Positions 57,824 to 64,000 of a stretch of 64,000 nucleotides of DNA are shown here, one piece after another. The notes under the pieces are model-generated. The model worked only from the letters and a program-made list of their open reading frames with translations. It was not told where the DNA came from and ran no database searches. The stretch's first letter is position 1. Every line of letters starts with the position of its first letter. The position numbers and the translations under genes are program-made. Origin of the DNA: Candidatus Pantoea floridensis (GTDB lineage Bacteria > Pseudomonadota > Gammaproteobacteria > Enterobacterales > Enterobacteriaceae); NCBI RefSeq assembly GCF_900215435.1, contig NZ_OCMY01000001.1, positions 1,798,001-1,862,000 of the forward strand, given 5' to 3'.

Positions 57824-59074
57824 ATGTCCTTTTCTCAGTTCGGCGACAAATTTACTCAACATTCCGGCATCTCCCGTCTGATGGAAGACATGGGTGAAGG
57901 CCTGCGCACGCCCGGTACCATCATGCTGGGCGGCGGTAATCCCGCGCAAATCCCGGCGATGAACGACTACTTCCATCAACTGCTGCTGCAGATGCATCAG
58001 GACGGCAAGCTGAGCGAAGCGCTGTGTAACTACGACGGCCCGCGCGGCAAAGCGCTGCTGCTGGAAGCGCTGGCGAAGATGCTGCGTGAGGAACTCGGCT
58101 GGCCGTTAACCGCGCAAAATATTGCGCTGACCAACGGCAGCCAGAGTGCGTTTTTCTATCTCTTTAATCTGTTCGCCGGACGTCGCGCCGATGGCAGCAA
58201 AAAACGCGTGCTGTTCCCGTTAGCGCCGGAATATCTTGGCTACGCCGATGCCGGACTGGAAGAGGATCTGTTTGTCTCCGCCAAACCGAACATTGAGCTG
58301 CTGCCGGAAGGCCAATTCAAATATCACGTCGATTTCGATCACCTGCCGCTGAATGATGATATCGGGCTGATCTGCGTTTCGCGTCCGACCAATCCGACCG
58401 GCAACGTGATCACCGATGACGAACTGCTGCAGCTCGATGCGCTGGCACAGCAGCACGGCGTTCCATTGCTGATTGATAACGCTTACGGCGTGCCGTTCCC
58501 GGGCATCATCTTTAGCGAAGCGCGACCGCTGTGGAACCCGAATACCATTCTGTGCATGAGCCTGTCGAAACTCGGCCTGCCGGGTGCGCGCTGTGGCATT
58601 ATCGTCGCCGATGAAAGCACCATCGCCGCCATTGGTAACATGAACGGCATTATCAGCCTCGCGCCGGGCAGCATTGGGCCGGCGATTGCCAATGAGATGA
58701 TCGTACGCGGAGATTTGCTGCGTCTGTCAGAAGAGGTGATTAAGCCGTTCTATCAGGCCAAAGTCAGCGAGACGATTGCCATTCTGCGCCGCTATTTGCC
58801 GGAAGATCGCTGTCTGATTCATAAACCTGAAGGCGCCATTTTCCTGTGGCTGTGGTTCCGCGATCTGCCTATTAGCACCGAAACGCTCTATCAGCGCCTG
58901 AAAGCGCGCGGCGTACTGATGGTGCCCGGCCACTTCTTCTTCCCCGGCCTGGAACATGAATGGCCGCATACCCATCAATGCATGCGCATGAACTACGTGC
59001 CGGATGCGCAGAAGATTGAGCGCGCGGTGCAAATTCTGGCGCAAGAGTTGGAAAACGCGTTTAACGGCGAGTAA
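57824..59074 (+). CDS. avtA: AvtA, valine-pyruvate aminotransferase
   Basis: 416 residues (E. coli 417). Fold-type I PLP enzyme: MSFSQFGDKFTQHSGISRLMEDMGEGL, TNGSQSAFFYLFNLFAGR, SRPTNPTGNVITDDEL and the PLP-lysine in CMSLSKLGLPGARCG. It transfers amino groups between valine, alanine and alpha-aminobutyrate and their keto acids. It has no obvious ribosome site upstream. A hairpin downstream separates it from the convergent microcin operon. Confidence 0.95.
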   Translation: MSFSQFGDKFTQHSGISRLMEDMGEGLRTPGTIMLGGGNPAQIPAMNDYFHQLLLQMHQDGKLSEALCNYDGPRGKALLLEALAKMLREELGWPLTAQNIALTNGSQSAFFYLFNLFAGRRADGSKKRVLFPLAPEYLGYADAGLEEDLFVSAKPNIELLPEGQFKYHVDFDHLPLNDDIGLICVSRPTNPTGNVITDDELLQLDALAQQHGVPLLIDNAYGVPFPGIIFSEARPLWNPNTILCMSLSKLGLPGARCGIIVADESTIAAIGNMNGIISLAPGSIGPAIANEMIVRGDLLRLSEEVIKPFYQAKVSETIAILRRYLPEDRCLIHKPEGAIFLWLWFRDLPISTETLYQRLKARGVLMVPGHFFFPGLEHEWPHTHQCMRMNYVPDAQKIERAVQILAQELENAFNGE

Positions 59075-59089
59075 AAAATTCCGCGTTGT

Positions 59090-59119
59090 AGCCAGGTGCG
59101 CCTGAATGCGTACCTGGCT
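59090..59119. terminator. Convergent hairpin between avtA and the microcin operon
   Basis: AGCCAGGT / ACCTGGCT with a 14-base loop, 16 bases after the avtA stop and 20 bases after the exporter stop on the other strand. No strong T run. Confidence 0.5.
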
Positions 59120-59138
59120 CAGGTCAGTTGTAAGGTCG

Positions 59139-61247
59139 TCAATTACATGACTTTAGCGTAATAACTCTATCTGCTGATGCTATCGTGCTCTCTCGGTGTG
59201 CGATGATTAACCGCGTAATGCTCAGTTTTTTGATTGCCTGATTCACCATTGCTTCACTCTCTTTGTCCAGTGCGCTGGTGGCCTCGTCCAGAAATAGAAT
59301 CGCAGGTTTCTTGTACAATGCCCGGGCGATGAACAACCGCTGCTTTTGCCCGCCAGACAGCCCTTCGCCCAATTCACCAATCAGCGTTTCATATCCCATT
59401 GGCATACGCGTAATAACCTCATGCAAATAGCTGGCCCGAGCACACTCCTTCATCCACGCTTCATCTATTTCCTCTGCAAAGCTGCAAATATTCTCCCTGA
59501 CTGAGCCGCAGAACAGTTTATCGTCCTGCATCACGCAGGCGATCATCTTGTGATAGTTGTTGATACCGATTTGCTGGATATCAACGCCATCCACCTTGAC
59601 ACAGCCACTTGTAGGAGAAAATAAACCGCACAGTACTTTCAACAGCGTGGATTTTCCCGAACCGGACGAGCCGACAATCGCCACGCACTCTCCCGGTAAG
59701 ATCGAAATGTTCAGTGCATCAAATATTGCCGGTGACTGGCTGTCGTAGCGGTAGCTCAGCGCATGGGTTGCCAGCCCCATTGGTTGCAGTCTCGCTTCGT
59801 AGCAGAGCTCAGGTCTATAATTTTCCCGCGGGTGCAGAGCAATGTCGGCAATGCGCTCGTTATGCAGACTCATCATGCGTAGCTGCAGTAAAAATTCTGT
59901 CAGCGACCCAACGCGGTCTGAGAACTGTGCGCGAAAAACGCCAAATGCGACAAACATACCCATCGTTATCTGGTTATCGATCACGAGGAGGGTTCCCATC
60001 CACAGAACAACAACCTGATCGCAGGCGGCAATAAAGGTACTGATACCGCCAAACAGCATATCCATTTTGGTGACGCGAATACCGGTGTTAATTGAATCGA
60101 TTTCGAGATTCAGCCAGTGGGAGACGCGGCGCTGAGCCATGCCCTGCATTTTGACGGCGGCAATGCCATAGAGTGTTTCCATAAAATACGAGCTGGCGCG
60201 CGCTTCCCTGACCAATAACTCTTCAGAAAGTTGCCGGTAATACTCGTAGGTTACCAGGCGCAGCAGAACATAAAAGGTGGTAAACGCTATCACGATCCAG
60301 GTCAGCCAGCCGCCATACAGGACCATCATCACCAGCACGCCAATCACCATGATGCTGTCCATAATGCCGCCAACGATGCTGGTAGTGAAGGTGCTGCGCA
60401 GCGTATCCAGTGAAGCGAATCGAGACTGAATATCACCCAACTTACGCCGCTCAAAGTAACCAAGCGGCAGGCGTACCAGATGATTGAACAGGCCGGATTG
60501 CCACTGCACGTTGATAAACGTTGCCATAACCAGCGCGGTCCAGGCGCGTCCCATCCCCACGGCAGCACGCAGCAGGATAAAAAAGAGTAATCCAGCACAG
60601 ATTAAGGTCAGTAAACCCTGATCGCCTGCGGGTATGGCGTGATCCATCACCAGCTGCGTGCCGACCGGCATCACAAGATTGATGGTCTCGAACACCAGTG
60701 ATAAGCAAAGTATTTTGCCGAGTACGGTCTTGAGGCCGTGCACGCTAGCGATCAGAGTACGGAAGCTGATTTTGTTGTGGACGCTGTCGGCGGTAAATGT
60801 GCTGCCTGGGCAGGCTTCGAGCGCCACACCGCTAAAATTTTTCGACAGCTCTGCGAAGCTGACCGTCCGGCGGCCGCGCGCCGGATCGTGTAGCACCACA
60901 CCATTCCGCCGGATGCTTACCAGTACGACAAAATGGTTGAATTCCCAGTGCAAGATGCACGGTATCTTCAATGCGCCTAACTCGTCGATATCGAGTGATA
61001 GCGGTCGGGTGCTCAGCCCTAGCTGATCAGCTATCCCCGTCAGTGCCGACAGCGTAGTGCCGCGAGCCGAGAGGTTGAACTGCCGTCGCAGCGCTATCAA
61101 ATCAACATTCTTGCCGTAGTATCCGCAGATCATTGTAAGGCAGGCCAGACCGCACTCGGCTGACTCGGTTTGGTGAATCATTGGGACACGGTGGCGCAGC
61201 CATAATTCCAGCTGACCGACCAGCGTTTTGCAGGTCAATCTACTCAT
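59139..61247 (-). CDS. cvaB: CvaB-like peptidase-containing ABC exporter for the microcin
   Basis: 702 residues. Residues about 15-150 are a C39 peptidase domain: catalytic Cys in [13 protein letters not shown], His in [11 protein letters not shown] and Asp in LHDPARG. It cuts double-glycine leaders. Then come about six membrane helices ([40 protein letters not shown]) and an ATPase domain: Walker [13 protein letters not shown], signature LSGGQKQRL and Walker [10 protein letters not shown]. It follows colicin V exporter CvaB along its full length. The start overlaps the preceding gene by eight bases. Last gene of the operon. Confidence 0.95.
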
Positions 61248-62514
61248 TGACTGGCCCCATAACGCTGTGTTTCATGTCGTAGAACGGCGAAAACATCCAT
61301 TGATATAGCCTCCTTTTTTCAAGGAACAGCGTGCTCTGTGCTTTAATGCCGTTCTCCAAACTCAGACGTTTACCGCCATACATAACAACCGGCTTTTCTG
61401 GCCTGACGATGACTTTGTAATAGGGGATCGCGGCAGTTAATGCCGATCGGGGTGCGCCCTGGTAGGTCAGCATTTCCTGCGGTGATGCGGGTGCTCTGGA
61501 GATGGCAGTAACGGTGCCAGCAAACTGACCAAATTTCTCCGCAGGGAAGGCTTCATAGCGAATATTGACCCGATCACCGAGGGTGAGATAAGGGATTGCG
61601 TCATTGGGCACCCACAACACCAGGGCGTAATGGTCGATAGTGTGAGGGAGAATTTGCAGCAAACTGTCGCCAGCGTTAACCATCTGTCCAACCGTAACGC
61701 TCAGCGAATCGATACGGCCAGCAGCCAGCGCTCGCACAATGATGGTTCCACCGGCATCAATGTTGAGTTGTTCTTTTTGCAATTCAAAACGCTGCAGTTC
61801 CATCTGGTAAATCTGATTGTCAAATTCAGCGCCCTGAGTATATATCTGGCTCTCCAACGCCGTGACTTGCAGCGCATTTTGATCATTCTGGCTTGATAGT
61901 CCGAGGAGATTATTTTGCTGTTGGTAATACAGTGCTACTTGGTTGGTAAGTTGATCTTTATTTACTAATCCCCGGAGCTGATAACGCCGATAGTTATCCA
62001 TATTCTCCTTAATAATACTGATCCCTTCCTGGGCGCGGCGGAGGATGTCAGTAGAGCGCAATAACGCGCCGGCATACTGCTCTTTTTGTTTTTCCAGCAT
62101 GTCGAGAGTGGCTTTCTTGCTGCTTTCAAGCCGGCTAATAATCTGTGTAATACGTTCAAGCTGGTGATCAATATCCCGGCGTTGATTTTCACTGACCACG
62201 CCGTTGTGGGTAGTTTTGCTGACGTCTATTTGGTAAATGGGTGCACCCGTTTCAATCATCTGCCCTGCAGTAACGAACTGCTTAACCACGACACCCTGAA
62301 CGCTGGAATAGACATTAGCTGCGCGAGGATAAGTGGATATTTCTCCCGTGACGTTGATCCGACGGGTATAAGTGCTAGCAATAACAAAGGTCAGGAATAG
62401 AGTAATAAAAAAGAGAGACAGCCCCGCAATGATCCAAAAAGGGATGCCGGGGAGCAGCAAGGCTCGACCGCGCCATTTCATTCTGTGATTCTCAACCGCT
62501 TCCAGGCGAAACAA
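61240..62514 (-). CDS. cvaA: CvaA-like membrane fusion protein for the microcin
   Basis: 424 residues from a TTG at 62512-62514, chosen because AAGGA precedes it and the resulting start ([27 protein letters not shown]) aligns with CvaA; the later ATG at 62481 would cut off conserved residues. One N-terminal membrane helix, a long coiled coil (about 110-215) and lipoyl/barrel parts ([38 protein letters not shown]), ending [14 protein letters not shown] as in CvaA. It links CvaB to TolC. TTG start suggests lower expression than the precursor. Confidence 0.94.
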
Positions 62515-62535
62515 TTTAGTATTCCTTACTCATTT

Positions 62536-63186
62536 TTAGTGGCCGAATAGATAATGTCCATTGACCACAATGCCGTTCATAAAGACATGCAGCAATACAG
62601 GTAATAACAATCCCTTTGACAAGACTCTCGCAGCAACCAGCGTTAAAGAAATAAGATAGAGAAGAAAGAAAGGCTTAAACCCAGAATACTGAGTGTGCAG
62701 CAGCGAAAAAATTAAGGACGTTACAAGCGCAGAGAATATTTTACTATTAGAAAAAACAGTTAACGCGCCAAATAACCCGCCTCTGATGGCTATCTCTTCA
62801 TAAACTGGCACCATCAAAATATAAGATATTTGCGTGAGAATAAGCGTATAGAGCGGTAGCGAAATCTGCTGATGGCTGACAACGACTTCGCCTGTGTTAA
62901 AAAGTACCTTTGGTATAACAAACTGAATTATTAAAATTAAAGAAAAAAATATAACAAATTGCATTAGTGTAAAGTTACCGACACCGAACCCCTCTTTCTT
63001 CTGAAATTTAAATAGATAAACGGGCACAATTACAAAAAACTCAACTATAAAGCCATACGGTAAAAACAATTCAGACGCAATTAATTCTCTTCGATTGGGA
63101 AAGAGCAACGGAACAGCTGTCAGTAGAAACATCAGAAGAAAAAGAGATACGTTTAACAAACCTTCTTTTTTAGTGTTTGTTTCCAT
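62536..63186 (-). CDS. CPBP-family membrane protease-like protein in the microcin operon
   Basis: 216 residues with six to seven hydrophobic helices; AAGGGAAAAGG precedes the ATG. The CPBP (Abi) motifs are present: VPVYEEIAIRGGLFGAL with the Glu-Glu-x-x-x-Arg site, FSLLHTQYSGFKPF with the His motif, and a final VLLHVFMNGIVV. Members include CAAX-type proteases and, in Gram-positive bacteriocin loci, immunity proteins. It lies between the small two-helix protein and cvaA, so immunity or maturation of the microcin is the likely job; not shown. Confidence 0.85.
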   Translation of the reverse strand: METNTKKEGLLNVSLFLLMFLLTAVPLLFPNRRELIASELFLPYGFIVEFFVIVPVYLFKFQKKEGFGVGNFTLMQFVIFFSLILIIQFVIPKVLFNTGEVVVSHQQISLPLYTLILTQISYILMVPVYEEIAIRGGLFGALTVFSNSKIFSALVTSLIFSLLHTQYSGFKPFFLLYLISLTLVAARVLSKGLLLPVLLHVFMNGIVVNGHYLFGH

Positions 63187-63216
63187 ACAGCCTTTTCCCT
63201 TAGCATTATATCGTCA

Positions 63217-63429
63217 TCATGACACTTTGTATTTTTTTGCTAAAAAACTGTTTACCTTATGAGCCAGAGCAACAAAGGATAATAATGAACTGATAATGAC
63301 GACCAATTTTGACAACTCAGGTGGCGGGGTGTAAATGAAGAATTCTGCAACAACCCCAGCGCCACTAATAAATAAAAAACCAGTCATCAAAAACACAAAA
63401 AAAACAAAATTCTTGAATAAAAAGAACAC
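63217..63429 (-). CDS. Small two-helix protein, candidate microcin immunity protein
   Basis: 70 residues from a GTG at 63427-63429, with AGGAG seven bases upstream. Two membrane helices (FVFFVFLMTGFLFISGAGVVAEF and LVVIISSLLSFVALAHKV) and a basic C-terminus (NSFLAKKYKVS), a size and layout common to class II microcin immunity proteins. It directly follows the precursor gene. The family itself is not recognised. Confidence 0.65.
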   Translation of the reverse strand: MFFLFKNFVFFVFLMTGFLFISGAGVVAEFFIYTPPPELSKLVVIISSLLSFVALAHKVNSFLAKKYKVS

Positions 63430-63443
63430 GTCTAACTCCTATT

Positions 63444-63470
63444 CACCCGCTCGCAAATAAGGAGCGGGTG
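63444..63470 (-). promoter_or_regulatory. Hairpin between microcin and immunity genes
   Basis: A perfect 9-base stem CACCCGCTC / GAGCGGGTG with a 9-base loop lies between the precursor stop and the ribosome site of the next gene. There is no T run, so it would act as partial terminator or as an mRNA stabiliser that sets the ratio of precursor to immunity protein. Confidence 0.6.
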
Positions 63471-63478
63471 AGGGTTAT

Positions 63479-63817
63479 CTATCGGCTGCAGGAACCGCCC
63501 ATCCCACCTGAATTACAATTTCCAGAGGAATTACTGTTACCGTTATTATTACCGTTGCCACTGCCTGTGAAACAACCCCCGGCTATCGCGCCACCGACCA
63601 TTCCCAGGCCTGCGCCGACGATTCCACCAGCGGCCCCAGCAATAGTGCCGCCAATGATGCCATTATTACAACCAACCACATAGCCGCTGTTGTAACCTGA
63701 GCGACCTCCAGCGCCACCGTTATTGCTATTGTTTTTACTATTTGAGCCCCGAGGGGGATCGTTACGACCACCACCACCAGAAATGAAGCTCAGTAATTCT
63801 CTCTCAATTACTTTCAT
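63479..63817 (-). CDS. Class II microcin precursor with double-glycine leader
   Basis: 112 residues from the ATG at 63815-63817, with AGGAG seven bases upstream. Residues 1-15 (MKVIERELLSFISGG) are a double-glycine leader as recognised by C39 exporters; cleavage could be after Gly15, or after Gly17. Residues 56-81 form a glycine-zipper hydrophobic helix (GGTIAGAAGGIVGAGLGMVG), like that of colicin V. The flanks are Gly/Asn/Ser-rich and four Cys are present (50, 82, 101, 110), which allows two disulfides. No modification genes for siderophore attachment are seen, so an unmodified (class IIa-like) peptide is likely. I know no named microcin with this sequence. Confidence 0.85.
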   Translation of the reverse strand: MKVIERELLSFISGGGGRNDPPRGSNSKNNSNNGGAGGRSGYNSGYVVGCNNGIIGGTIAGAAGGIVGAGLGMVGGAIAGGCFTGSGNGNNNGNSNSSGNCNSGGMGGSCSR

Positions 63818-64000
63818 AAACAACTCCTTTGTTCAATGTTGTAATCCCACATACCTATTCAGCGAGGAGATTAATACCTCACTTTTTATTTCGTGCAAAG
63901 CGGTTTTTCTCGGAACTAATTAGCTGGTATTGTAATAAGAATCCAATAAAATAGCGTATTATTTGGCTAAACCATTGTTTTTTAGATTCAATTTAAATCA
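63818..64000. other. Upstream region of the microcin operon
   Basis: AT-rich stretch that should hold the promoter. I see no convincing Fur box and no clear -35/-10 pair, unlike many siderophore-type microcin promoters. No gene is visible to the window end. Confidence 0.5.

Follow-up and report, generated by a model that had tools for sequence, protein, structure and literature searches.

The end of this chromosomal stretch from Candidatus Pantoea floridensis raises the question of whether it carries a microcin of a new type, and of how a cell producing such a peptide would be protected from it. The window, i.e., the whole 64,000 nt stretch analysed (GCF_900215435.1, contig NZ_OCMY01000001.1, positions 1,798,001 to 1,862,000), is part of the chromosome in a genome of 5.45 Mb. 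At 59139-63817 it has five closely spaced genes on the minus strand, all with intact open reading frames. These code, in this order, for a microcin precursor, a small membrane protein with two helices (the two-helix protein), a CPBP protein, a CvaA-like protein, and a CvaB-like protein. The initial annotation, made from the sequence alone, had described a complete class II microcin operon at this position, with the four other genes following the precursor in one minus-strand row. This description is correct: the five-gene operon is real and complete, and Pantoea sp. SOD02 carries these five genes in an identical order. The operon is probably also a working one. With good confidence, we regard this chromosomal operon as acquired horizontally and as encoding a class IIa-like microcin from the microcin S/MccPDI family; a secreted antibacterial peptide is its likeliest product.

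The precursor gene (63479-63817, minus strand) codes for 112 residues from an ATG start. Double-glycine cuts after residues 15, 16, and 17 were compared, and only a cut after G15 places hydrophobic residues at -4, -7, and -12, as the rule reported for class II leaders has it (PMC11494933). The predicted leader thus comprises residues 1-15 (63773-63817) and the predicted mature microcin 97 residues (63482-63772), with 33% Gly, 17.5% Asn, a calculated pI of 9.2, and a calculated mass near 8.81 kDa, from which each disulfide would take 2 Da. The double-glycine leader and the four cysteines (Cys 50, 82, 101, and 110) are as initially described. A peptidase-containing exporter (C39) and a membrane fusion protein are linked to the precursor, as class II requires.

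The precursor had been thought to resemble no named microcin; microcin PDI was listed among the non-matches and microcin S was omitted. We find it to be homologous to the precursors of both. Compared with McsS, it shows 36% sequence identity over 109 aa, with an E value of 3e-24 when four sequences were compared uncorrected for composition, and a shuffle z of 12.7, with 0/1000 composition-keeping shuffles reaching the score. Compared with McpM of the MccPDI type, z is 12.5 (0/1000), and for the mature parts alone it is 11.4 in both cases. The plasmid ORF that we took as McpM has 14/14 residues checked from PMC5311971, and it shares 96/120 residues with McsS, in agreement with the 80% stated for the two precursors in PMC10233263. 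The four cysteines are in register among the three sequences. Cys50 and Cys82, which frame a glycine-rich stretch, align with C57 and C90 of McpM, which are reported as required for killing, while C109 and C118 are dispensable (PMC5311971). Because the homology to McsS and McpM extends over the whole length, with the cysteines in register, the precursor is, as judged from sequence, a microcin S/PDI homologue, a distant cousin rather than a new type.

Kinship of the mature part to colicin V was considered and rejected as not significant: the precursor reaches z 3.3 against CvaC (4/1000), which falls to z 2.0 (35/1000) without the leaders. This pairwise comparison covered McsS, McpM, and CvaC and left out the named microcins L, N, H47, M, E492, I47, and G492. 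That the peptide represents a type unrelated to the named microcins is very improbable. Such an assignment could draw on a precursor that has no Pfam or NCBIfam match up to E 0.1 and shows just 36% identity to its nearest named relative, but it is refuted at the family level by the full-length homology, the four cysteines in register, and the matching CPBP gene described below. The initial annotation overstated the novelty because it omitted microcin S and missed MccPDI. Its expectation of an antibacterial peptide probably stands, for a homologue within a known family and not for a novel type, and the 36% identity to McsS indicates homology without strong identity.

Wider searches gave few names. 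An initial protein search returned 10 precursor relatives and a profile search 113 (among the 8000 candidates sharing most words). Among the matches listed, most are called hypothetical protein and a few bacteriocin, and those with weak E values include double-glycine bacteriocins of Gram-positive bacteria (Divergicin A, Blp family). No microcin name occurs among them, though the entries of 120 residues include microcin S-type precursors by length and profile. Against the PDB, the precursor profile matched microcin E492 alone, at E 0.48. PF10439 matches 5 of 14 aligned precursors (best E 6.3e-6), and a microcin E492 model weakly matches 3 (best E 0.0079); the precursor from the window is matched by neither model. 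A tblastn search of plasmids with the precursor (low-complexity filter on) gave no match, and no close copy of the operon is present in the E. coli genomes searched. Double-glycine precursors in four other loci (L047, L049, L053, and L054), encoded close to CPBP or exporter genes, have a common C-terminal NSVNGQCHW and differing cores, which suggests a modular exchange of microcin halves.

The exporter genes are of another kind. The CvaB-type protein (59139-61247, 702 aa) has C39 peptidase and ABC domains (Pfam), and the CvaA-type membrane fusion protein (61240-62514, 424 aa, TTG start) has HlyD domains (Pfam). As initially described, they follow the colicin V pair: the CvaB-like protein is identical to CvaB of pAPEC-O2-ColV in 481/698 residues (69%), and it retains the catalytic residues C32, H105, and D121 as well as the Walker and signature motifs. 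It shows 39% identity to McsB, and the CvaA-like protein 24% to McsA. The closest plasmid exporter among the matches listed is 81.8% identical. A TolC-type protein is encoded elsewhere in the genome (TIGR01844 above its cut-off, 443 bits). Because the exporter is CvaB-like while the precursor is S/PDI-like, the operon is a mosaic of a colicin V-type exporter and a microcin S-type core. We take the McsAB exporter to be a usual companion and not a defining trait of microcin S; because an exporter of that type is not present here, we assign the operon to the S/PDI family and not to microcin S itself. On an Enterobacter plasmid (L046) and a Klebsiella plasmid (L063), a gene annotated as glycosyltransferase domain or toxin adjoins a CvaAB-type exporter.

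Horizontal gain is indicated by the insertion site. Two flanking genes were searched in 61 genomes of the genus and found, at the limits set, in 50/61 and 57/61; both are on one contig in 49/61 genomes. The gap between the flanking matches is 8-90 bp in 38/49, 349-1026 bp in 9/49, and ca. 5.13 kb in 2/49, and the latter two are those with the operon. The site is thus empty in most relatives. When the flanks were aligned by BLAST with five empty sites, the edges of the inserted block fell at ca. 59067 and ca. 210 bp beyond the end of the window (near G000:C1:1862210), so that within the window it spans approximately 59067-64000. Precursors from the window and from SOD02 are 84-90% identical, depending on the alignment. 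The same gene order is also present on plasmids from P. dispersa and E. persicina amid other neighbours, and it therefore seems that the operon is mobile as a cassette. By eye, we noticed neither an integrase nor an insertion sequence in the block, and no search aimed at them was made. In L135, L136, and L138, and at the right junction in L056, the insertion site, empty or filled, has palindromic repeats of the GGTCGCCAT-AATGGCGACC type, which perhaps aid recombination. Beyond the window, a plus-strand gene row (L055:7324-11586) codes, judged by eye, for an ATP-pyrophosphatase, an ATP-grasp enzyme, a glutamine amidotransferase, and a 2-oxoglutarate oxygenase, and may be a small natural-product cluster.

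Some observations do not sit easily with the assignment to a class IIa-like S/PDI microcin. Besides the missing domain match and the exporter type already mentioned, the AlphaFold2 model of the precursor is poor (mean pLDDT 42.9), so that of the glycine-zipper helix claimed initially the zipper stretch is plain in the sequence while the helix has little confidence. For McpM, two cleaved leaders are reported (PMC5311971), the second with a GA cut (G35-A36); the window precursor has a GA pair at 35-36, and SOD02 does not have it at that place. The precursor tail aligns with the tails of McsS and McpM yet is Gly/Ser-rich, and the class IIa label rests on that alignment. Siderophore-modification genes were not noticed by eye within the block, the remaining genome not having been searched.

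It could further be asked whether the operon kills at all; the secreted peptide might be a signal, or the operon might be silent. When 23 candidates from Pantoea, Erwinia, and Xanthomonas were assayed, 12/23 inhibited E. coli, 7 of them in each of the two trials and 5 in a single trial, and much more weakly than MccV, according to the results reported in PMC13174018. Silence or signalling is nevertheless improbable, given that the genes are intact and linked to genes of immunity type. When the window is compared with SOD02, silent codon changes exceed replacements in the precursor (23:11), the CPBP gene (47:32), and the CvaA gene (63:29), and not in the two-helix gene (7:16); this comparison took in four genes and left out CvaB.

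How would the producer be protected? The CPBP protein (62536-63186, 216 aa) is predicted to be an Rce1-like intramembrane protease (PF02517, E 4.5e-13) and is 85% identical to that of SOD02. It shows 26.5% identity to McsI over 196 aa (shuffle z 17.5), and its three motifs, EE130xxxR, F160xxxH, and H200xxxN, are at places matching those of McsI. Against the PDB, no relative was found by sequence up to E 1. For microcin S, mcsI is reported to protect an indicator strain (PMC3316575), and the CPBP gene is, to judge from these similarities, the counterpart of this proven immunity gene. Protease immunity as such is not new. A Vibrio cholerae microcin reportedly has proteolytic immunity, going by the title of a cited paper, and CPBP proteins process peptides in other systems. 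The latter would also be compatible with a maturation protease in place of an immunity protein, an improbable role here because McsI protects the indicator strain and it is the C39 exporter that cuts leaders of this class. For CPBP-type immunity proteins of Gram-positive bacteriocins, too, degradation of the own peptide has been suggested (PMC8538875).

The gene between precursor and CPBP gene (63217-63429, minus strand) codes for the two-helix protein, with 70 aa from a GTG start and two hydrophobic stretches. AlphaFold2 models helices at residues 2-22 and 37-69 (mean pLDDT 72.7), and the search against Pfam and NCBIfam returned DUF202 alone, below its cut-off (E 0.036). We detected a homologue between mcsS and mcsI of pSYM1 (L048:6904-7101), where it is unannotated in that record, and another after the MccPDI-type precursor (L060:3213-3410). 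Shuffle z values are 6.3 and 8.7, respectively (0/1000 each); as a control, comparison with the colicin V immunity protein Cvi gave z 0.2 (405/1000). Further homologues occur in P. dispersa, E. persicina, and Pantoea sp. A4. The family has 33 members listed, including that from the window, and among the matches listed none has a functional name. In PMC3316575 and PMC10269471, the microcin S cluster is described as mcsS, mcsI, mcsA, and mcsB, to which PMC3316575 adds ORF1 and ORF2. We found no prior notice of the two-helix gene in the literature on microcins and immunity, which was not searched by gene name, and the gene may be covered elsewhere.

We tentatively read the two-helix protein as the cognate immunity protein and the CPBP protease as a further layer of protection, which is optional. 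The competing explanation, that the two-helix protein is a helper in production or maturation (the label given to mcpA in MccPDI) or has some other role, with the CPBP protein alone giving immunity, appears rather doubtful to us. Several lines of evidence bear on this choice.

One is gene neighbourhood. Precursors and two-helix genes were searched by profile in 392 genomes, each independently of position. Precursors were found in 21 genomes (23 places) and two-helix genes in 21, with 15 genomes in both lists. At 18/23 precursor places, a two-helix gene follows 4-164 bp downstream on the same strand. Two of these 18 belong to the profiles (the window and L108, a copy of the microcin S operon); without both, the count is 16/21. 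A CPBP gene is nearby at 4/23 places and a full-length exporter at 5/23, counts which are lower bounds since some stretches stop at contig ends. A partner that follows the precursor this often, where the CPBP gene is near so rarely, argues against a mere helper beside CPBP-based immunity. The two genes are not strictly tied, because some relatives hold one without the other. Precursor places without a two-helix gene are L115, L121, L128, L129, and L130. We also inspected five stretches around lone two-helix matches, leaving out further places in G414 and G062: a precursor is present in L134, and none is nearby in L126, L127, L132, and L133.

These four stretches, as well as L064 and L128, where a precursor and a CPBP gene occur with no two-helix match, speak for a helper or some other role. 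The fast change of the two-helix gene (16 replacement vs. 7 silent) would fit an immunity gene, but it is also the weakest coding signal among the four genes compared.

Covariation was examined for 25 distinct pairs, and precursor and two-helix distances proved to be correlated (Mantel r 0.31, 1/5000 permutations); common ancestry of the pairs could also produce this correlation. The arrangement on an E. persicina plasmid (L041) argues against the helper role. Two precursors flank the CPBP and exporter genes and each has its own two-helix gene, but there is a single CPBP gene and a single exporter. The two precursors share 39 of their first 44 residues and then 36/73 aligned, and their two-helix proteins are identical at 13/67 positions.

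The published constructs for microcin S bear on both explanations. We mapped the primer table of PMC3316575 onto pSYM1. The forward primer for pAZ8 covers the last bases of the small two-helix ORF, so that pAZ8 (mcsI, mcsA, and mcsB) lacks this ORF. Since pAZ8 is reported to protect (PMC3316575), McsI is sufficient for protection in that assay, which favours immunity by the CPBP protein alone. MccPDI, with one gene termed immunity and one termed synthesis, points the same way. Of the primer pairs, one spans the small ORF and another mcsS. The labels of pAZ9 and pAZ11 look exchanged in the primer table, because pAZ12, with a truncated mcsS, is named as derived from pAZ9. If they are exchanged, the small ORF would be ORF2 of PMC3316575, assayed there for killing alone; this is our reading of the table and not that of its authors. 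The active pair pAZ8 and pAZ9 would then lack the small ORF, which would thus not be needed for production, contrary to what a helper would imply.

In the MccPDI-type plasmid, the CPBP gene is a 78-residue remnant (L060:3418-3654) without the EExxxR and FxxxH motifs, and because of this the two-helix gene there is a candidate for protection. The published mcpI could be either small ORF. It is conceivable, though far from assured, that the two-helix proteins of 65-75 residues beside S/PDI precursors constitute one unrecognised family of cognate immunity proteins, and that microcin S is a five-gene operon in which the first immunity gene has escaped notice.

An RNA hairpin (63443-63471, minus strand) is predicted between the precursor gene and the two-helix gene, with no T run after the stem. 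P. dispersa and E. persicina have a similar stem at the equivalent position, with altered bases that still pair. Folding z values are -3.99 for the window, -3.69 for SOD02, -1.78 for P. dispersa, and -0.83 for E. persicina. The hairpin may keep toxin mRNA above that of the downstream genes. A scan for promoters and terminators gave 5 and 6 sites, compared with 7.2 and 5.8 in shuffles.

With cognate immunity by the two-helix protein as the preferred reading, the system may function as follows. CvaB would cut the leader after G15, and the cationic peptide of 97 residues would exit via CvaA-CvaB-TolC. A disulfide between Cys50 and Cys82 would lock a glycine-zipper hairpin. The peptide may enter relatives, perhaps via a porin, as MccPDI is reported to require OmpF (PMC5743794, PMC6795089), and would then damage the inner membrane of the target. 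The two-helix protein and the CPBP protease would protect the inner membrane of the producer, the protease probably by cleaving or blocking the peptide.

If this is true, two-layer immunity would have a natural example in the operon, with a helical-hairpin blocker and an intramembrane protease, the CPBP layer being full here and a remnant in the MccPDI-type plasmid. According to a review (PMC10233263), immunity proteins cannot yet be traced through conserved features of their sequence; the two-helix gene would offer a way of recognising a likely immunity gene from sequence, which could pair orphan microcins with their protection. It also makes testable why some members add a protease to a small immunity-type protein.

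Several described systems come close to the operon. Microcin S (McsS, on plasmid pSYM1 of E. coli G3/10) has in common with it a precursor homologous over its full length, with four cysteines and a double-glycine leader, a CPBP protein of 216 residues with the same motifs, and a small two-helix gene between the two. It differs in the low precursor identity, in its leader of 18 residues vs. 15 here, and in having an McsAB-type exporter on a plasmid, whereas the exporter here is of the CvaAB type and chromosomal. Microcin PDI shares the homologous precursor with aligned cysteines and the small two-helix gene that follows it (L060), but there the CPBP gene is a remnant and McpM is reported to have two cleaved leaders. 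The microcin S-like clusters from Klebsiella are described as mcsS, mcsI, mcsA, and mcsB, with mild activity against some Klebsiella; their variants are 73.4% and 52.8% identical to McsS (PMC10269471), and the precursor from the window is further away. The likeness to the Vibrio cholerae microcin is confined to proteolytic immunity as given in a title, which does not establish that the protein concerned is of the CPBP type. Colicin V (MccV) shares the exporter pair, while its mature part is not significantly similar and Cvi is unlike the two-helix protein. With this operon, the microcin S/PDI family gains a member on a Pantoea chromosome, and the colicin V-type exporter joined to a microcin S-type core demonstrates an exchange of exporter and toxin-immunity parts.

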